This document shows positions 5,281 through 20,651 of a stretch of DNA of 64,000 nt, piece by piece (the stretch's first letter is position 1; each line of letters begins with the position of its first letter). The translations under genes and the position numbers were made by a program. This stretch comes from Blastocatellia bacterium (GTDB taxonomy: Bacteria > Acidobacteriota > Blastocatellia > Pyrinomonadales > Pyrinomonadaceae). The stretch lies in contig PMSM01000011.1 in the NCBI GenBank assembly GCA_003168335.1, positions 144,590 through 208,589 of the forward strand, written 5' to 3'. The notes beneath the pieces were generated by a model. That model did not search any database and had not been told where the DNA came from. It saw only the letters and a list, made by a program, of their open reading frames with translations.

Positions 5281-6657
5281 CTAGATGGCCACGCACTCGC
5301 CGCGCTTCAGAAAGCGGCCGTTGCCTGCCTTACCTTTGAACTCACCTTTATCAATCACGACGTGGCCGCGCGACAGGACGGTATCCACTGCGCCTTTTAT
5401 TGTCCGGCCTTCGTAAGCACTATAGTCGACGTTCATGTGATGAGTTTTCACGCTGATCGTCTGTTCCTGATTAGCATCGAAGATCACGATGTCCGCGTCC
5501 GAACCAATCGCGATCGTACCTTTCTTCGGGAACAGCCCGAACATTTTTGCGGCGGCGGTTGACGTAAGCTCGACAAAACGATTAAGCGAGATGCGATTCT
5601 CAACTACGCCGGTATAGATCAGCGAGACGCGGTGCTCGACGCCCGGCGCGCCATTCGGAATCTTGGTAAAGTCGTCGCGGCCCAACTCTTTCTGCTCTTT
5701 CATGCAGAACGGACAATGGTCGGTCGAGATGACTTGGAGATCATCCATCTTCAAACCCTTCCACAGCTCCGCTTGATTGGCTTTCTCGCGCAGCGGCGGC
5801 GTCATTACATATTTCGCGCCGTCAAAGTCTTCACCGTAGTCATCGATTGAGAGGAAGAGATACTGCGGACAGGTTTCGGCGAAAGCAGGAATGCCACGGT
5901 CGCGCGCCTGGCGCACCTGATTGAGCGCGTCCGCGCATGAGAGATGGACGATGTAGACCGGCGCCTCAGCCATCTCAGCGATCGCGATGGCCCGATGCAC
6001 GCCTTCGGCTTCGGCCAGAGTCGGGCGCGTCAGCGCGTGATACTTAGGCGCCGTGTGACCTTTGGCCAGTGCGTGTTTGATGATCTCGTTAATGACGATG
6101 CCGTTTTCGGCGTGCATGCAAATCAAGCCGCCGCGCGAGCCTGCGGCCAACATCGCGCGAAAGATCGTCGCATCGTCGACCAGAAAGACGCCGGGATAAG
6201 CCATGAACATCTTGAAGCTGGTCACGCCTTCATCCATAACCGCGTACATCTCTTCGATCTGGCGGTCTTCGAGCTCGGTAGTGATCAGGTGAAAGCCGTA
6301 ATCGATCGCGCATTTGCCTTCGGCTTTCTTGTGCCAGTTATCGATGCCTTGCAATAGCGACTCGCCCTTGTACTGGACGGCAAAGTCGATGATCGTCGTC
6401 GTCCCGCCATGAGCGGCGGCGATTGTGCCGGTGCGAAAATCGTCGGCCGCCGTGGTACCGCCAAAAGGCAACTCCATGTGCGTGTGCGGATCGATGCCAC
6501 CGGGAATAACGAGTTTCCCGCCGGCGTCGATGGTTACGTCAGCTTCCATGTCGAGCCTGGCGCCAATGACAGAGATGACTTCGTCCTCGATCAGGATGTC
6601 GGCTTTGTAATCGTCAACAGCGGTGATGATGCGACCATTACGGATTAGAGTTTTCAT
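5281..6657 (-). CDS. hydA: Dihydropyrimidinase / D-hydantoinase
   Basis: Cyclic amidohydrolase opening 5,6-dihydropyrimidines or 5-substituted hydantoins, the second step of reductive pyrimidine catabolism, in the cytoplasm. All binuclear zinc ligands of the family are present: His58 and His60 (DPHTHME), the carboxylated Lys148 (SFKMFMAYPG), His181 (CMHAENG), His237 (VHLSC) and Asp312 (STDHCPF). About 458 aa from ATG 6657, the usual size; the upstream extension to 6768 runs through a repeat and is rejected. No strong ribosome-binding site. The NCS1 permease, aminotransferase and aldehyde dehydrogenase on the same strand could be pathway partners, but dihydropyrimidine dehydrogenase and beta-ureidopropionase are not in the window. 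Confidence 0.93.
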   Translation of the reverse strand: MKTLIRNGRIITAVDDYKADILIEDEVISVIGARLDMEADVTIDAGGKLVIPGGIDPHTHMELPFGGTTAADDFRTGTIAAAHGGTTTIIDFAVQYKGESLLQGIDNWHKKAEGKCAIDYGFHLITTELEDRQIEEMYAVMDEGVTSFKMFMAYPGVFLVDDATIFRAMLAAGSRGGLICMHAENGIVINEIIKHALAKGHTAPKYHALTRPTLAEAEGVHRAIAIAEMAEAPVYIVHLSCADALNQVRQARDRGIPAFAETCPQYLFLSIDDYGEDFDGAKYVMTPPLREKANQAELWKGLKMDDLQVISTDHCPFCMKEQKELGRDDFTKIPNGAPGVEHRVSLIYTGVVENRISLNRFVELTSTAAAKMFGLFPKKGTIAIGSDADIVIFDANQEQTISVKTHHMNVDYSAYEGRTIKGAVDTVLSRGHVVIDKGEFKGKAGNGRFLKRGECVAI

Positions 6658-7264: not shown

Positions 7265-9985
7265 CTAAGGAATCAACTCCGACGTCAGCAGCGCCCCACC
7301 CAAACTCGGCAGCGTCGCGCTGATCTTGACGACCTTATGCGAATCTTTCGCGATCCAGATGGTTTGTTTGTCCGCGTCGTTATCCGCGTCTACCACCTCG
7401 ACCTTGTAGGCATCAAAGGTGCCGGCAGGGACTGTGACGCTTTCCGTCGAAAGCACCTTCAGGTTCTTGATCTGCACCTTCTGTTTTTGCACGTCAAAAT
7501 TGCGGAAGGTGGTGCTGTAGTTTGCCGCCAACGGCAGCCTTGCCAGCACGTCGAAGGCGCCGCCGCCGTCAGCGAATACAATCCCGCCGAGATCCACGTC
7601 AATCGGCTTCGCCTGACCACTGGTGGTCATTGTTCCCGTGACCTTGTTGCCTTTGAAATCAAGTTCGACCACAGCCGGATCCTGGGTAATCGAACGATGC
7701 TTTAGAATCAGGGTGCCCTTCTCGATCGTGGCCACGTCAATGGTCTTGCCAAACGGAGTATCGGCGATTTCGGTGACTATCCATGAGCCGCCGACCTCCT
7801 TAATTTCGGTGGTGGTGGTCAGCGGGATGGTCTGTGGTCCGGCGACGATGGTGGCTTTATAGCTAAATTTTCCGGCGCTGAGATCGACGGCAGGTTTTGG
7901 AGCACCCGCTGTTGCATCAACCTTCTTTGGCAGTGTCACCGTTTTTACGTCGACGGTAATTTCTTTTTGCCGGCTGGCGACCTCGGGTTTCATGTCTTCC
8001 TGATAACGGCCGTTCAGATACTTGGCAAAGAACTTTTCGGCAGTTGCGAACATGGCCATGTTGTTGACCGGCCGGTGAAAGCCGTGTCCTTCATCAGGAG
8101 CGACGATATACTCAACCGGAAAACCTCGATCGCGAAGCGCGATCACGATCTGATCCGCTTCACGTTTGTTCACCCGCGGATCGTTGGCGCCCTGCACGAC
8201 CAGAAGTGGCGTCTTGATCTTCGTCGCCGAGTTCAAAGGTGACTGTCGATCAAGCTGCGCTTTTCCTTCCGGCGTAGACGGATCGCCCATGCGTTGATAG
8301 AAGAGCTGGCGACCTGCTTCCCAGTACGGTGGAATTGTTTCCAACAGCGTGTTCAGATTTGAAGGGCCAACATAGTCGACGGCCGCCGCATATAGATCAG
8401 GTGTAAACGTGACCCCGGCCAGGGTCGCGTAGCCGCCATACGATCCGCCCATGATGCCGACTCGTTTTGGATCGGCGATGCCCTGCGCAACCAGATACTT
8501 GACGCCCCAGGTGATGTCGTCCTGCATCTTGTCGCCCCACTGTTTGTTACCGGCGTCGATGAACTTTTTGCCATAGCCGGTTGAACCGCGGAAGTTCGGC
8601 TGCAAAACCGCATAGCCGCGATTGGCCCAGAACTGCGCGAAGGGATCATAGCCCCACGAATCGCGCGCCCATGGTCCGCCATGGGGGAAAATAACCATGG
8701 GCAGATTTTTTGCCGTGACGCCTTTCGGCAATGTCAGGTAAGCCGGTATCTCCAGACCGTCGGACGATTTGTATCTGACAGCCTGCATTGGCGCGAGTTG
8801 ATCCCGATTGAGCTTTTCGCGAATGCGATACTCCGAGGTCAGTTTCTTCGTGTTGCGATCAAAGAGGTAGGTCTCGCCCGGATCAGTGTCACTGAACACT
8901 GCCACCAGAGACACACGCTCGTCTTTCGTCAAAGATGAAAAAGCAATCTCTTTGCCGGGAAACTGCTTTTGCAGCAACTTGTAATCAGCTTCGTAAGACT
9001 TGTCCTTGAAATAGATCCGTTCCCGATCGTCCTGGTAAACAGTGGCGATCAGATCATCGGTCACCTCCGAAAATGAGACGTCGGTAATGTCGACGCGACT
9101 AAGCGGATCGGACTCGACAATTTCTTCTTTCCCCGTCGCCGGGTCGAACAGCTCCAGCTTAACCAGATCGATGCCCGCACCCTTGTTTGTTTCAAAGTAA
9201 ACCCGCCGGCCGTCTTTGTGATAACGCACCGGCCCGCAGTTTTCGAATACATTGCACGAATAAACTTTCGTGAAGCCTTTGTCGTCCACGCGCATGACTT
9301 CGGTGTCGCCATTGTCAGCGACGCGGACAGCGAGGCGCAGTTGATCTTTTAGATCGAAGCTCCAGCCCGCGATGCGTTCGGTATTCTGCCGGACCAGCGT
9401 CCGTTCGCCGGTCGAGATCTTAACCTTGTAGAGATCGTGCCAGGCCTTATCGCGATCATTTAGCCCGACATAGATGGCATCGGGCTCACTGCGAGGCACG
9501 GCGTAGATTTCAGCGCGCACGCCCTTTACGTCGGTCAGATTGCGCGCTGCCGGCACATCCTGACCCGCCGCCGGACTGTCGGCCGGATTGACTGCATAGA
9601 CGAGATAGTTCTCATCACCCGCCTTGTCCTGCACGAACAGAATGTACTTGCCATCGCGACTCCAGAAATATTCCGGAATGGGACGAGTCGTATCAGCCGT
9701 GAGCGGCTTCGCAGAGTCAAAAGGCGCTTCAGTGTGTTTGACCCAGACGTTGCGCGTGCCTTTGAACGGTTTGATGAAAGCGATGAAGTTGCCATCGGGC
9801 GAGATCTGGGCGCCGGAGATTTCCGGATCGCCAAAGAACAATTCCCGATCGATTAGCGGTGGCGGGCCTTTGGGTTGGGCTGTCGCGCCCAGCGGCAAAA
9901 CGGCGAGCACGAGCGCCGCGAAGAAAGCAGCCGCGAACAGCCGAAAGAACCTGGAGCGCAGTTGGGATGAAACTGTAGATTTCAT
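7265..9985 (-). CDS. Secreted S9 prolyl-oligopeptidase-family peptidase with extra C-terminal DUF3108-like domain
   Basis: Extracytoplasmic serine peptidase of family S9 (acylaminoacyl-peptidase/DPP-like). Signal peptide at 1-37 (LVLAVLPLGATAQ), beta-propeller at about 45-400, alpha/beta-hydrolase domain at about 405-660 with Ser515 (GGSYGGYA), Asp602 (GANDPRVN) and His634 (DEGHGF). Family members usually stop there. This protein adds about 230 residues (680-906), beta-rich with VPAGTFDAYKVEVVDADN and WIAKDSHKVVKI, resembling DUF3108 proteins such as the one at 20752..22296. The extension may bind substrate or envelope partners (inference). ATG 9985 is the only plausible start giving a signal peptide. 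Confidence 0.92.
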   Translation of the reverse strand: MKSTVSSQLRSRFFRLFAAAFFAALVLAVLPLGATAQPKGPPPLIDRELFFGDPEISGAQISPDGNFIAFIKPFKGTRNVWVKHTEAPFDSAKPLTADTTRPIPEYFWSRDGKYILFVQDKAGDENYLVYAVNPADSPAAGQDVPAARNLTDVKGVRAEIYAVPRSEPDAIYVGLNDRDKAWHDLYKVKISTGERTLVRQNTERIAGWSFDLKDQLRLAVRVADNGDTEVMRVDDKGFTKVYSCNVFENCGPVRYHKDGRRVYFETNKGAGIDLVKLELFDPATGKEEIVESDPLSRVDITDVSFSEVTDDLIATVYQDDRERIYFKDKSYEADYKLLQKQFPGKEIAFSSLTKDERVSLVAVFSDTDPGETYLFDRNTKKLTSEYRIREKLNRDQLAPMQAVRYKSSDGLEIPAYLTLPKGVTAKNLPMVIFPHGGPWARDSWGYDPFAQFWANRGYAVLQPNFRGSTGYGKKFIDAGNKQWGDKMQDDITWGVKYLVAQGIADPKRVGIMGGSYGGYATLAGVTFTPDLYAAAVDYVGPSNLNTLLETIPPYWEAGRQLFYQRMGDPSTPEGKAQLDRQSPLNSATKIKTPLLVVQGANDPRVNKREADQIVIALRDRGFPVEYIVAPDEGHGFHRPVNNMAMFATAEKFFAKYLNGRYQEDMKPEVASRQKEITVDVKTVTLPKKVDATAGAPKPAVDLSAGKFSYKATIVAGPQTIPLTTTTEIKEVGGSWIVTEIADTPFGKTIDVATIEKGTLILKHRSITQDPAVVELDFKGNKVTGTMTTSGQAKPIDVDLGGIVFADGGGAFDVLARLPLAANYSTTFRNFDVQKQKVQIKNLKVLSTESVTVPAGTFDAYKVEVVDADNDADKQTIWIAKDSHKVVKISATLPSLGGALLTSELIP

Positions 9986-14507: not shown

Positions 14508-14627
14508 GGTAGTGCCCTAATTCAAGTCGTTCTCTGCGGTTAATTGCCCAAGCCAAAGACATTAACCGCAGAGAGCCCAGAGGTTGGCGCAGAGGGCCGC
14601 AGAGAAAACTGAAATTAGGGCAGCACC
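14508..14627. mobile_element. MITE-like fold-back element, short copy (120 bp), with 8-bp target duplication
   Basis: Ends are GGTAGTGCCCTAATT and, read inward from the right, GGTGCTGCCCTAATT (14 of 15 match). CCGACAAA is repeated directly at 14500-14507 and 14628-14635. Removing the element and one duplicate restores a perfect palindrome with arms AGTGTCCGACAAACT and AGTTTGTCGGACACT, direct evidence of insertion. Inside, CTCTGCGGTTAAT and ATTAACCGCAGAG form a perfect hairpin. The copy at 25134 is nearly identical apart from 32 bp, absent here and bounded there by direct TTCTCTGCG repeats. No transposase; the mobilising enzyme is unknown. Confidence 0.9.
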
Positions 14628-14701
14628 CCGACAAACTGAAGTTTGTCGGACACTGAACTCTTCGCTTTGACGGGGCACTCCAAGTTTATATACTGCCAAC
14701 G

Positions 14702-16246: not shown

Positions 16247-16502
16247 TTCGGTATTTTCACGCGGTCCTGAGCGGATTCACTCAGTGAGTTCGCAATTATT
16301 TCGCTAAGGCATCTCTGTCAAAACCAAAAAGTAATGCTTAAGACAAAGGCACGGACTTGGCTCTGTCCTCCGTCACCAACTTAAGCTGCGCTCGATGCTG
16401 GAATCCGAGCCTGCTTGAGAGTATCTATCGTTTGCAGTCTTAGTTTAAGAACAGCTCAGCGCGGCGAGAAATTGCTTTTGTCAGGCACGGCGCGCTCGCA
16501 CG

Positions 16503-16763
16503 TTGACGCAGGTCAACTGGCGCTGTAGAGTACGCCCGCTCTTAGTATTTGTTATATCCACCGGCGGTTGGGTGCGGACAACCCGACGGTGCCGTGTGGT
16601 GTTAGAAGCCCTAAGCCCCCAAGCCCGTTTCTCTTGTTCGCTTACCGCTTCCCCGAAAGACACCCGCGAAAACTTCGGTCTGGAGTTCTCTGGCGTTGAA
16701 GTGTCTTCGCCGGTTACTGGTCGGTTGTTATGACGACCACCCACTTACGAAAAGGAGAAATCA
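16503..16763 (+). promoter_or_regulatory. Promoter and long 5' leader, copy A of a duplicated candidate structured RNA
   Basis: TTGACG (16503-16508), a 17-bp spacer and TAGAGT (16526-16531) form a sigma-70-type promoter. About 230 nt then separate it from ATG 16764. From TAGAGT on, the sequence aligns with 18117-18377 in front of the next gene, with conserved blocks in the same order: GGGTGCGGAC (16570), CCCGACGG (16582), TAAGCCCCC (16612), ACACCCGCGA (16670), CTCTGGCGTTGAAGT (16688). GTTGGG can pair with CCCGAC around a loop containing TGCGGAC, inside an outer CCACCGGC/GCCGTGTGG stem. A strong site AAAGGAGA precedes the start. No known riboswitch class recognised. Confidence 0.7.
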
Positions 16764-18029
16764 ATGAATTCAAAGAAAATAGGAGTTGTTTTATCGGTGT
16801 TTGCCCTGGCTATGGTGCTGGGTTTTGTCATGTTTAGTGGAAACAAGACACGGGCAGCCGCCACGTGCTCGGTTCCTTCCATTGCCTACCCATCAATTCA
16901 AGCTGCAGCCAACGATGCCACTTGCACCGAGATCGACGTGGCGGCCGGAAGTTATTTCGAGAATGTCGTCGTCGATAATCCAACCACGATTAAAGGCGCG
17001 CAAGCGGGAACTGATGCACGTGGTCGAGTTGGTCTCGAATCGACGGTAAATGGCGCAAATCCTATCGGTGCCAACCCAGTATTTAAGATCAGGGCAGCGG
17101 GTGTCACCATCGACGGTTTCACCGTGAAAAACTCGATCACAACTGGAGCTGCGGTTGGAATCGATATTAAGAGCACAGCTACCGGCGCTGTGATTACTAA
17201 CAATATTATCGACGGTGTGACCACGACGGACACCGGCGGCAACGGTACTGGGCAAGGTGTCTATCTGGAAGCCGGACCCGACAACGTCACCATCTTCCAA
17301 AACGACATCAAGAACGTTTCCGGCGCCTTTTCTACGAAGGGCGTTCACATCGGCGATGGGAGTTCGACAGACTCAAGCGTCAACGTCGTGATTAACGCAA
17401 ATTCTATTTCGAATATCACGAGCACGACTCGCGGTTCATACGGCGTTTCAATCAACAACGGAAATGGTCACACATCGAACACGGGCTTGGTAATCACCAA
17501 TAACACCATCAGTAACTTAACTGGCGGTGGTTGGTTGCACGCGATTGGTTTGGAGGCTAAAACGCCCGGTGTTGTAGTTACGGGTAACACCATCAGCAAT
17601 CTGACGGGTCCTGCGACGGGTACCTTCGGTGTCTGGTTCGAAAGTGAAGAAGGTTCGTCCTTCGCTACGGCTCTTGTTAACGAGAACAATTTCAATTTGA
17701 CCCCGACCCAGTTCGGAATCATTGTCGATCCGGCTTTGAGCACAGCGTTTCCGGCGCTCTTTGTCGATGGCACCTGCAATTGGTGGAACAGCCCGAGCGG
17801 ACCTACGGCTGCGAGTAATCCAAGCGGAACTGGCGCGCGAGTTACTCCGAATGTCACCTACAAACCTTGGCTTATCTCGCCAGCGCCGGGTGGAGATTGC
17901 ATCGGCGGCAACGTGCCCACCAACAAGGATCAGTGCAAAGACGGTGGATGGAAGACGCAAGTCCGCGCTGATGGCAGCACTTTCAAGAACCAAGGCGACT
18001 GCATTCAGTATGTGAATACTGGCAAGTAA
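16764..18029 (+). CDS. Secreted right-handed parallel beta-helix protein
   Basis: Exported protein of 421 aa with a signal peptide (VVLSVFALAMVLGFVMFSG) and a solenoid of beta-helix coils such as GVTIDGFTVKNSITTGAAVG, TGAVITNNIIDGV, DNVTIFQNDIKNVSG, NVVINANSISNI, GLVITNNTISNL and GVVVTGNTISNL, a pectate-lyase/NosD-like fold used in polysaccharide binding or surface roles. The C-terminus carries a small Cys module (KDQCKDGGWKTQ, FKNQGDCIQYV) that recurs in many secreted bacterial proteins of unknown function. AAAGGAGA ribosome-binding site. Leader and terminator flank it as a single-gene unit. No catalytic residues identified. Confidence 0.88.
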   Translation: MNSKKIGVVLSVFALAMVLGFVMFSGNKTRAAATCSVPSIAYPSIQAAANDATCTEIDVAAGSYFENVVVDNPTTIKGAQAGTDARGRVGLESTVNGANPIGANPVFKIRAAGVTIDGFTVKNSITTGAAVGIDIKSTATGAVITNNIIDGVTTTDTGGNGTGQGVYLEAGPDNVTIFQNDIKNVSGAFSTKGVHIGDGSSTDSSVNVVINANSISNITSTTRGSYGVSINNGNGHTSNTGLVITNNTISNLTGGGWLHAIGLEAKTPGVVVTGNTISNLTGPATGTFGVWFESEEGSSFATALVNENNFNLTPTQFGIIVDPALSTAFPALFVDGTCNWWNSPSGPTAASNPSGTGARVTPNVTYKPWLISPAPGGDCIGGNVPTNKDQCKDGGWKTQVRADGSTFKNQGDCIQYVNTGK

Positions 18030-18041
18030 TCGCAATTACGG

Positions 18042-18073
18042 AAAAGGCGGTCAGAACAGTTGACCGCCTTTTT
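18042..18073 (+). terminator. Rho-independent terminator of the beta-helix gene
   Basis: AAGGCGGTCA pairs with TGACCGCCTT around a 6-nt loop and is followed by TTTCTTT. It begins 13 bp after the stop codon. Confidence 0.9.
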
Positions 18074-18116
18074 CTTTACCGGCGTCTGGCCGCTTTTATT
18101 TCTTAACATTACCGCA

Positions 18117-18377
18117 TAGAGTACGCACGCTCTTAGCTAGTAATGCACACCGCCGGATGGGTGCGGACGCCCGACGGAAGCGTGTGGTGTTTGAAGCATA
18201 AGCCCCCGAGTCGCTTCTCGTGCCCCGCTTGCCGCTTCCCGAAAAAACACCCGCGATAGTTTCAGCTCTTATGAACCACTCTGGCGTTGAAGTTAGTCTT
18301 GCCAGGTTCCGGTCGATTGTGCGGAACGACCTACCATTACTTTACAGGGAATCTCGAATTCCCAGGAGGAAATAGCT
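18117..18377 (+). promoter_or_regulatory. 5' leader, copy B of the duplicated candidate structured RNA
   Basis: Starts with the same TAGAGTACGC (-10 box, 18117) as copy A; the -35 region is weaker. Conserved blocks: GGGTGCGGAC (18159), CCCGACGG (18170), TAAGCCCCC (18199), ACACCCGCGA (18247), CTCTGGCGTTGAAGT (18279). The outer stem changes sequence (CACACCGC/GCGTGTGG, with a bulge) but can still form, as expected for a conserved RNA structure. A ribosome-binding site CAGGAGGAAA lies before ATG 18378. Homology stops near the ribosome-binding site, and the downstream proteins are unrelated, so the leader and not the gene was duplicated or retained. Confidence 0.7.
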
Positions 18378-19109
18378 ATGAAGAGAAAAAATATCCTGGT
18401 TTTATTAGTAGCGTCTATGTTTGTGATGGCGATCGGAATATCTTCGATCGCAACCATGCCTGCATCTGCTCAGGGGAAGAGCCAGGACCTTGGGAAGAAC
18501 TGGAGGGTCTTCAACGTTAAGCCGGATACCAGCTCGTTCTGGGACATCAACAAGGCAGCGGATCTTCCCGGTGGCGTTGTGCAGTTTCCAATCCAGCCGT
18601 TCCTGACAAAAACTACCGGCTCATTCGCGGTGTATCTGCTCAACAACTACAACGTTGATATGACAGGAAAGACCTTCAATATGAATGCCACTTGGACGCC
18701 CGGGTCTTACGAGACTCGTTCGACAAGTTTTCCCGGTGCTTATGTGCGGTTTGAATTTCAGGACGTAACATCTGGCCCGTACGACGCGAATGATTACTGG
18801 TGGTCAACCGGCGGCAACAGCCTCGACCTCAACGCGGCCACGGGAGGTACGCTAACGGTTTCTTTGAACGATCCTTCGAAGTGGAGCAATTTGTGCGGAA
18901 GGTCTGCAACCGACACTACAGCGCCATACACGGATTGCATAACTGGAAATCAGATCGACGTGTCGCCAGCCGCCGGATTTGCCAATGCTGTCAAGAAAGT
19001 GAAGCTGGCGGGAATCGCATTCGGAAGCTCAGGTTCTTACGCGAGTGGCGTTGCGATCGACGGTACGAACGCCGGAAACTTCCAGGTGTGGAACTTCACG
19101 ATTCAGTAA
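18378..19109 (+). CDS. Secreted protein of unknown function
   Basis: 243 aa with a signal peptide (ILVLLVASMFVMAIGISSIA, cleavage after PASAQ). The mature part is beta-rich and aromatic (RVFNVKPDTSSFWDINKAAD, GSFAVYLLNNYNVDMTGKTF, GAYVRFEFQDV, DYWWSTGGNSLDL, and near the end AGIAFGSSGSYASGVAI) and resembles a carbohydrate-binding-type jelly roll, but no family is recognised. Two Cys (LCGRS, DCITG) may form a disulfide. Strong AGGAGGAAA ribosome-binding site. Expressed from the same kind of leader as the beta-helix gene upstream, so the two secreted proteins are probably co-regulated. Confidence 0.8.
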   Translation: MKRKNILVLLVASMFVMAIGISSIATMPASAQGKSQDLGKNWRVFNVKPDTSSFWDINKAADLPGGVVQFPIQPFLTKTTGSFAVYLLNNYNVDMTGKTFNMNATWTPGSYETRSTSFPGAYVRFEFQDVTSGPYDANDYWWSTGGNSLDLNAATGGTLTVSLNDPSKWSNLCGRSATDTTAPYTDCITGNQIDVSPAAGFANAVKKVKLAGIAFGSSGSYASGVAIDGTNAGNFQVWNFTIQ

Positions 19110-20248: not shown

Positions 20249-20413
20249 GCTGGGAGCGCGGACGTCCCGTCCGCACTGAGCGCGCGGCGCGAAAAGCGTT
20301 TGTCAGCTTATGACTGATATCGCTCAAAGAACATGAGCGAACTTCGTTCGCTGTGCGGACGGGTCGAGCACCCCAGCGAGGCTGCGGGGACCCCGCACGT
20401 CCGCGCTCCCAGC
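20249..20413. repeat. Large intergenic palindrome
   Basis: Perfect 17-bp arms GCTGGGAGCGCGGACGT (20249-20265) and ACGTCCGCGCTCCCAGC (20397-20413), with an inner pair CCCGTCCGCA/TGCGGACGGG. Occupies most of the 328-bp gap between the iron permease and the next small gene. No gene seen. Confidence 0.8.
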
Positions 20414-20432
20414 AATTGGTTGAGTCCAGGGA

Positions 20433-20651
20433 CTATTCCGAAGGCCGGTCAAAGACCGAGTTGATGACGTAGAAGGCGATCATGCCGCTGCCAATGACGG
20501 CACACGTGGCCACGGTCCGCCACAGAACATCGGTCCCGGCAAAATTCCAAATGGCGAGCAGGCAGGCGACGACCGCCACGAGAATGCACGCGCTCGTAGT
20601 CCAGAAGGAAATCTTCGTGACTATGCGCGGATTGAGGAAGCCTCTTTTCAC
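20433..20651 (-). CDS. Small two-helix membrane protein
   Basis: 72 aa with two hydrophobic helices (WTTSACILVAVVACLLAIW and VLWRTVATCAVIGSGMIAFY) and a basic N-terminus (KRGFLNPRIVTKISF). GTG start at 20651 with AGGACAAG upstream. No family recognised. It stands alone between the large palindrome and the DUF3108 gene. Confidence 0.65.
   Translation of the reverse strand: MKRGFLNPRIVTKISFWTTSACILVAVVACLLAIWNFAGTDVLWRTVATCAVIGSGMIAFYVINSVFDRPSE

Follow-up and report, generated by a model that had tools for sequence, protein, structure and literature searches.

In Escherichia coli ompA and Bacillus subtilis aprE, a structured 5' untranslated region (5' UTR) stabilizes the messenger RNA (mRNA) of an abundant exported protein that also has a good Shine-Dalgarno (SD) sequence, and stabilizers of this type need a stem located at or close to the mRNA 5' end. 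Comparative genomics has added candidate cis-regulatory structured RNAs of unknown function, including Acido-1 (RF01686) and Acido-Lenti-1 (RF01687), both of which appear in the tables of that survey as not cis-regulatory (PMC2864571). Here we describe a leader that occurs twice in 64,000 nucleotides (nt) of DNA from a Blastocatellia bacterium (assembly GCA_003168335.1, contig PMSM01000011.1, positions 144,590 to 208,589), in front of two unrelated secreted-protein genes, A and B; this whole stretch is called the window, and positions are counted from its first letter. The leader is probably a lineage-specific structured 5' UTR that would place a swappable set of extracellular proteins under common control.

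The locus is comparable with the described systems in part only. Like ompA and aprE, it has a structured 5' UTR and a good SD before an exported-protein gene; unlike them, given a transcription start about 7 nt past TAGAGT, it would have about 20 nt of RNA preceding hairpin 1, and here one element serves many genes. As with the candidates tabulated in PMC2864571, two of which come from Acidobacteria, its hairpins are conserved ones found by sequence comparison; unlike Acido-1 and Acido-Lenti-1, listed there as not cis-regulatory, 16 of the 16 copies examined here are leaders, and the element has no match in Rfam 15. Conserved loops, changing stems, and the leader position are shared with riboswitches, whereas a match to a known class and a recognizable expression platform are not. 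A literature search, with most subscription papers and all bioRxiv preprints outside its reach, found no description of such a leader among the papers listed.

Leader A (16526-16763) and leader B (18117-18377) are 75.2% identical over 210 nt by local blastn (E 1.8e-29), and a MAFFT alignment of the two recovers five blocks in the same order: GGGTGCGGAC, CCCGACGG, TAAGCCCCC, ACACCCGCGA, and CTCTGGCGTTGAAGT. The original prediction, made from the letters of the window, had reported these blocks, and had placed one shared leader before two unrelated genes; both statements are borne out, and blastp at E 1e-3 finds no match between the proteins of gene A and gene B. Its coordinates are also correct, with its start at 16503 falling on a -35-like hexamer (TTGACG, 17 bp, TAGAGT). 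In the organism's own genome (5.16 Mb), a DNA search at E <= 0.001 finds A and B as the only two matching places, and a covariance model taken up to E 10 finds the same two and no third—the copies are neighbors rather than scattered. The prediction had recognized no known class by eye, and Rfam agrees: version 15 at gathering thresholds gives no match in the whole 64 kb window, a permissive search of 16400-18450 gives three sub-threshold matches with none on leader A or B, and the locus of the best-scoring homologue has one sub-threshold match only, at the 3' edge of the core. Judged by sequence, both leaders represent one lineage-specific RNA element that has no Rfam 15 match.

Searching relatives with a covariance model, as had been suggested, yields further copies in two genera of Pyrinomonadaceae, a family within the class Blastocatellia; there are now 17 accepted copies in 10 of 119 family genomes, with one to three per locus. 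All seven genomes of the window's genus are positive (two copies each in G000 and G005, three each in G001 and G006, and one each in G002, G003, and G004), as are three of 16 in the second genus (two copies in G128 and one each in G123 and G121, the last outlying at 34.7 bits). The second genus was already reached by model R1, which was built from ten leaders and lacks G002, found later; model R2, built from 15 sequences without G121, raises the second-genus scores, partly because those sequences are now in the model. By DNA search at E <= 0.001, matches in 60 related genomes are confined to the window's genus. R2 on 162 genomes of the class (E <= 0.001) returns the accepted family carriers and G036 only; the G036 match (27.1 bits, E 3.4e-4) owes its score to a single palindrome, CTGGCGTTGAAATTTCAACGCCAG, and was judged to be chance. 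A possible further copy in G130, of the second genus, scores 16.2 bits and stands outside the 17 accepted copies. Among 396 sampled genomes of the phylum, scores above 24.5 bits occur only in members of the window's genus and nothing convincing was added; the remaining model matches in family and phylum (at most 27.1 bits) were judged to be chance from the sequences of 18 loci and eight alignments. A GTDB-wide pattern scan gives 28 stretches, four of which (L071, L075, L078, and L081) the model recognizes, all of them relatives already found; the other 24 score 23.6 bits at best, away from the pattern match, and were treated as chance. The hairpin-3 pattern with up to three mismatches is matched in 8 of 119 genomes, with one control match, and five matches lie outside known leaders, each with three mismatches. 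Searches over more than 40 genomes used stricter filters, through which weak copies may be lost. The carriers among named records are the uncultured Acidobacteria gp4 AA24, gp4 AA21, Centralia_MAG_6, and Pyrinomonadaceae ES-bin-189.

Two further observations concern the edges of this set. At L032 (G006), positions 9832-9884 on the minus strand, a 53-nt hairpin-2-like stretch (13.7 bits, E 0.12; left out of alignments A8 and A9) sits 5' of the first intact leader and is perhaps the relic of a lost unit. The most divergent leader, L058 (G121) 6391-6527, keeps the hairpin-1 and hairpin-3 motifs and has a different hairpin 2; near it lies a tyrosine-recombinase-like (integrase-like) gene, named by eye.

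As far as sequence comparison can tell, the secondary structure of the element is conserved with compensatory changes—strongly in hairpin 3, moderately in the outer stem of hairpin 2, and not in hairpin 1. A folding signal is present in alignments made from sequence alone: ten same-genus cores give an RNAalifold value of -70.8 against -51.3 +/- 4.9 for shuffled columns (z -4.0, 0/200), 14 cores give z -5.35 (0/200 column shuffles as low), three second-genus cores z -2.0 (5/200), and a diverse set of ten z -2.55 (1/200). In A9, an alignment of 16 rows fitted to the model, 91.0% of 601 cells are paired and 18 of 39 pairs have changes on both sides, a number that 0 of 500 shuffles reach and for which a slid structure gives at most nine. 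The fold is that of the plus (sense) strand, since 66 of the 547 paired cells are G.U, which on the other strand would be A.C mismatches. Because A9 leans to its structure, we used a strand-swap test on 14 leaders; native pairs beat swapped pairs in hairpin 3 (1/5000 permutations as low) and moderately in the outer stem of hairpin 2 (202/5000), where the covariation appears across genera. Within the window's genus, only 8 of 500 shuffles attain the covariation score. The free folds of both G128 copies, which were outside R1 training, contain hairpins 2 and 3, and that of G123 contains hairpin 3.

The claim of a structured RNA thus stands on the column-shuffle signal, the additional copies in two genera, and hairpin 3, and loses one of its original arguments: the outer stem of hairpin 1 had been described as changed but pairable, and the alternatives can indeed be drawn (CCACCGGC/GCCGTGTGG versus CACACCGC/GCGTGTGG), yet in the 14 leaders 2237/5000 permutations are as low. 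We therefore base the RNA reading on the alignment-level fold, hairpin 3, and the between-genus changes, and hairpin 1 has no part in it. An early RNAalifold consensus, in which the hairpin-3 region was the partner of the 5' arm of hairpin 1, was dropped for local hairpins (RIBOSUM option), a choice guided by the same data. By eye, the loops of hairpins 1 and 3 are complementary in 13 of 16 leaders, with a double change in G002 and a one-sided change in G121, and the match is broken in three (G001_2, G006_2, and G006_3), which is no more than suggestive of a loop-loop contact. Three copies were handled separately: G004, with a deletion, was left out of R1, R2, A9, and the fold, SD, tree, and swap tests; G006_3 was left out of R1, the sequence-only fold test, the tree, and the swap tests; and G121 was left out of R2, the tree, and the swap tests, and enters the sequence-only fold test only within the diverse ten.

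The leaders are associated with secreted proteins: all 15 readable downstream proteins were judged by eye to be secreted (the G003 gene runs off its contig after nine codons, G123 also runs off its contig, and G001_3 is partly masked). By blastp these 15 fall into at least six groups. The beta-helix group holds A, G001_1, G001_2, G128_2, G006_3, and weakly G006_2; further groups join B with G002, and G006_1 with G005_2 and G123 (67-76%), while G005_1, G128_1, G001_3, and G121 stand apart, a C-terminal tail being common to G005_1 and G128_1. Gene A resembles the beta-helix proteins behind other leaders and has a weak NosD match, far under the family cut-off, and no Pfam match; gene B has no Pfam, NCBIfam, or PHROGs match. 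One cargo family occurs in 3/119 genomes (3/3 matches, E <= 1e-10) and the B family in 2/119 (E <= 1e-8; gene B itself and one G002 protein), in every case behind the leader. The protein of gene A ends in a conserved tail, NKDQCKDGGW...FKNQGDCIQYVNTGK. This tail of about 40 residues (NKDQCKxxGW...FKNQGDCVxYVxNGK; window 17900-18029, and also in L033, L034, and L056 proteins) recurs in secreted proteins that differ in other respects (beta-helix and TSP3-repeat proteins among them), and it could be a module for export or for attachment to the surface.

Leader and cargo do not share their descent. The leader tree (14 rows, with 2 of 11 inner branches well supported) rejects three groups defined by protein similarity, the tree having been seen before testing: G128_2 with G001_2, whose proteins are 65% identical over 391 amino acids (approximately unbiased test, p-AU 3e-5), G123 with G006_1 and G005_2 (p-AU 8e-5), and B with G002 (p-AU 0.017). 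The window copies A and B do not form one clade either (p-AU 0.036), and within-genome clades are not rejected for G001, G006, and G005 (p-AU 0.31, 0.22, and 0.45). The tree of the leaders contradicts the orthology of the downstream proteins, and the leaders would therefore have been homogenized within lineages or the genes exchanged behind resident leaders; these are the simplest readings, and the data do not tell them apart.

The leaders belong to repeated units. A complete unit has TTGAC(A/G/T), 17-18 bp, TAGAGT or a similar hexamer, a short spacer, hairpins 1-3 and often a fourth GGUC...GACC hairpin, followed by an SD such as AAGGAG, a start codon, a signal-peptide-like start, one gene, and a terminator; the leader is about 220-250 nt long, with a folded core of about 160 nt. 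Of the 17 leaders, 11 have TTGAC at 17-18 bp from a -10-like hexamer, and 11 carry a perfect TAGAGT; the -35 is missing from B, G001_2, G001_3, G006_2, G002, and the truncated G006_3. All 16 leaders examined precede an SD and a start codon, and a comparable hairpin 4 was seen by eye in 10 of 14 (one of them weak), being absent in G001_1, G005_1, G005_2, and G123. Around TAGAGT (window 16526-16545 and 18117-18136), conservation extends past a -10 box over TAGAGTACGCNCGCTCT, within which an imperfect inverted repeat, AGAG...CTCT, might be a start-site operator. Genes for a CoA ligase and FTR1 both flank the units in three of the 10 genomes (G000, G128, and G006, the last with a 1730-codon frame in between); one flank only is present in two (the ligase in G003, followed by the contig end, and FTR1 in G001), and neither was found in the stretches read of the other five (G002, G004, G005, G121, and G123). 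The flanking genes differ among genomes, and the arrays therefore lie at more than one place.

In the window, every part of both units is on the plus strand. Unit A opens with the promoter-like site at 16503-16531 (TTGACG, 17 bp, TAGAGT; 9/12 matches); two such sites were found in the scanned region against 1.7 in shuffles, so its support is comparative. The three-hairpin core of leader A (16557-16714) scores 149.7 bits with R1 and 144.4 with R2, and that of leader B (18146-18306) scores 129.6 and 133.4, both sequences having been used to build the two models. Consensus folds of the ten same-genus cores place hairpin 1 of A at 16559-16591, with a conserved GCGGAC loop—its sequence is conserved, without covariation in the swap test—and consensus folds also give the long, interrupted hairpin 2 at 16593-16668, with the outer stem CGUGUGGUGU / ACACCCGCG. 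Hairpin 3 (16690-16713; CUGGCG...CGCCGG, with conserved UUGAAGU and GUCU in the loop) has the strongest covariation. A possible hairpin 4 (16719-16738, GGUCG...CGACC), folded separately, ends 13 nt 5' of the SD, AAGGAG (16752-16757), and gene A (16764-18029) encodes a 421-amino-acid secreted beta-helix-like protein with a signal peptide recognized by eye. An intrinsic terminator, AAGGCGGTCA...TGACCGCCTTTTT, is read from the sequence 3' of gene A at 18044-18073; the terminator scan missed it, an overlap between T-run and stem being a possible reason. Leader B follows with a -10-like TAGAGT (18117-18122) that has no TTGAC-type -35. Its hairpin 1 (18150-18177) appears in the consensus fold and the free fold of B, hairpin 2 (18181-18255) is likewise present in the free minimum-energy fold, and hairpin 3 (18281-18305) is backed by the free fold and by covariation. 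A possible hairpin 4 (18311-18331, GGUCG...CGACC, again a separate fold) and the SD AGGAGG (18364-18369) lead to gene B (18378-19109), a 243-amino-acid secreted protein of no known family whose signal peptide was also recognized by eye. Elsewhere in the window, intergenic GC-rich inverted repeats at 20255-20435 (GCGGACGTCCCGTCCGC ... GCGGACGGG ... CGTCCGCGC) look by eye like interspersed repeats, and a repeat-like intergenic stretch at 14520-14640 (TCTCTGCGGTTAATTG ... CCGCAGAGAGCCCAGAGG; repeat D6) lies 5' of the CoA ligase gene.

How might such a unit work? With its own start, a complete unit would run from a sigma-70-like promoter through the folded leader and SD to one secreted-protein gene and a terminator. 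The leader would be transcribed with each gene and act in cis on its own mRNA, and one regulatory state would be imposed on any extracellular protein placed behind it. The original prediction of an undescribed cis-regulatory leader for exported proteins holds for the folded leader with no Rfam match; the cis-regulatory role is one that we infer, and no conserved sequestration of the SD was found. The most likely route, though we give it somewhat less than even odds, is that mRNA stability or translation is set by a factor acting in trans, probably a protein, that recognizes the conserved loops of hairpins 1 and 3. These loops (GGAC with GUCU; GGAU with AUCU in G002) may touch and form one recognition surface, which would serve a lineage-specific RNA-binding factor. 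Gene conversion would keep the copies of a lineage similar, or cargo would be exchanged behind a resident leader. A more tentative proposal, which we favor less, is a regulon built by recombination: unrelated secreted genes would be swapped behind a homogenized leader, and a newly captured gene would come immediately under the RNA-level control common to the others, with the loops as the recognition surface.

Several findings weigh against a co-controlling structured 5' UTR. A9 was fitted to its own structure; the 14-core consensus draws the 5' half differently and retains only inner hairpin 2 and hairpin 3, and the diverse-ten consensus also redraws the 5' half and retains little of the model. 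Single full-length leaders fold like shuffles (z 0.38 and -0.11), and in the window's genus alone double changes occur in four pairs, as many as 127 of 500 shuffles reach. In the 14 leaders, the swap test finds no covariation in the outer stem of hairpin 1 (2237/5000), in its second candidate, CACCG/CGGUG (3452/5000), or in the middle of hairpin 2 (2965/5000). The units themselves are uneven: 6 of 17 leaders have no clear promoter, and a hairpin with at least four T follows only 7 of 13 genes with a readable end (by eye). There are damaged copies as well—hairpin 1 and the -10 are gone from G006_3, whose gene is still open, and the G004 leader has an internal deletion, its gene running off a short contig—and the third gene of G128, before FTR1, stands without a leader. 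The search for an expression platform found none, SD pairing being like that of shuffles, and the genomes are assemblies, the named ones being metagenome-assembled genomes.

The lack of a platform bears on a metabolite-sensing riboswitch, in which a small molecule bound by the leader would switch expression of the extracellular proteins. Aptamers typically combine conserved loops with changing stems, the same element precedes several gene families, and GCGUGUGG has two possible partners, CCACCGC upstream or ACACC.CGC downstream, an ambiguity that resembles a switch; however, the upstream alternative is the pairing without covariation (2237/5000), and no conserved partner sequesters the SD. Across 16 leaders, the unpaired probability of the SD is within about 1.2 standard deviations of shuffled leaders in 15, with inconsistent partners, and the G121 SD is more open than in shuffled leaders. 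A scan of the window finds no convincing terminator between hairpin 3 and the SD; the sole plus-strand terminator match within a leader (16709-16721, five pairs) shares nucleotides with the 3' arm of hairpin 3 in leader A, and leader B has nothing equivalent. There is no Rfam match, and the cargo genes suggest no metabolite. Without the classical switch parts a riboswitch is less likely, and we consider it unlikely. The leader might otherwise be mainly a DNA element, either a recombination slot for cassettes or a group of regulator sites, its folding being of secondary importance. Patchy cargo (3/119 and 2/119 genomes) that is always behind the leader, the differing histories of leader and cargo, and the strong conservation of TAGAGTACGCNCGCTCT around the -10 would fit, but covariation and G.U pairs favor RNA, the whole transcribed part is conserved, and no integrase was recognized at the window's locus. 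Searches of viral contigs (by pattern), plasmids (with leader A), and phages (with leader B) gave no match; a phage or plasmid origin is not supported, a mobile sequence having been one of the explanations that the prediction had named as able to overturn it, and we think a DNA element improbable.

Tandem duplication of the whole unit, with the leader decaying more slowly than the coding part, would explain the repeated units, the damaged copies, and the relation of A to several beta-helix proteins behind other leaders. Against this, the A and B proteins have no detectable relation, the leader tree rejects orthologous protein groups that slow vertical decay would keep, and the sequence-only folding signal and hairpin-3 covariation need selection on RNA; a duplication relic is very improbable. 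Coding was the other explanation that could have undone the prediction, here as a translated upstream reading frame (leader peptide) with conserved codons. Several leaders have open frames of 27-64 codons, e.g., VRVVLEAESPQDVSLARLPLLL, but these end differently, and in the ten same-genus cores substitutions number 96, 92, and 91 by codon position and 36 of 40 indels are not multiples of three and so shift the frame; coding is excluded as an explanation, and a leader peptide is scarcely credible.

We therefore return to a structured 5' UTR shared by extracellular proteins as the probable reading. The element adds to a common, little-studied group of soil bacteria an RNA that has no Rfam 15 match and has a testable fold. 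If the inference is true, unrelated secreted proteins would be brought under one control through a common leader and not through a transcription factor; the conflict between the histories of leader and protein makes the concerted evolution of a regulatory RNA directly testable.

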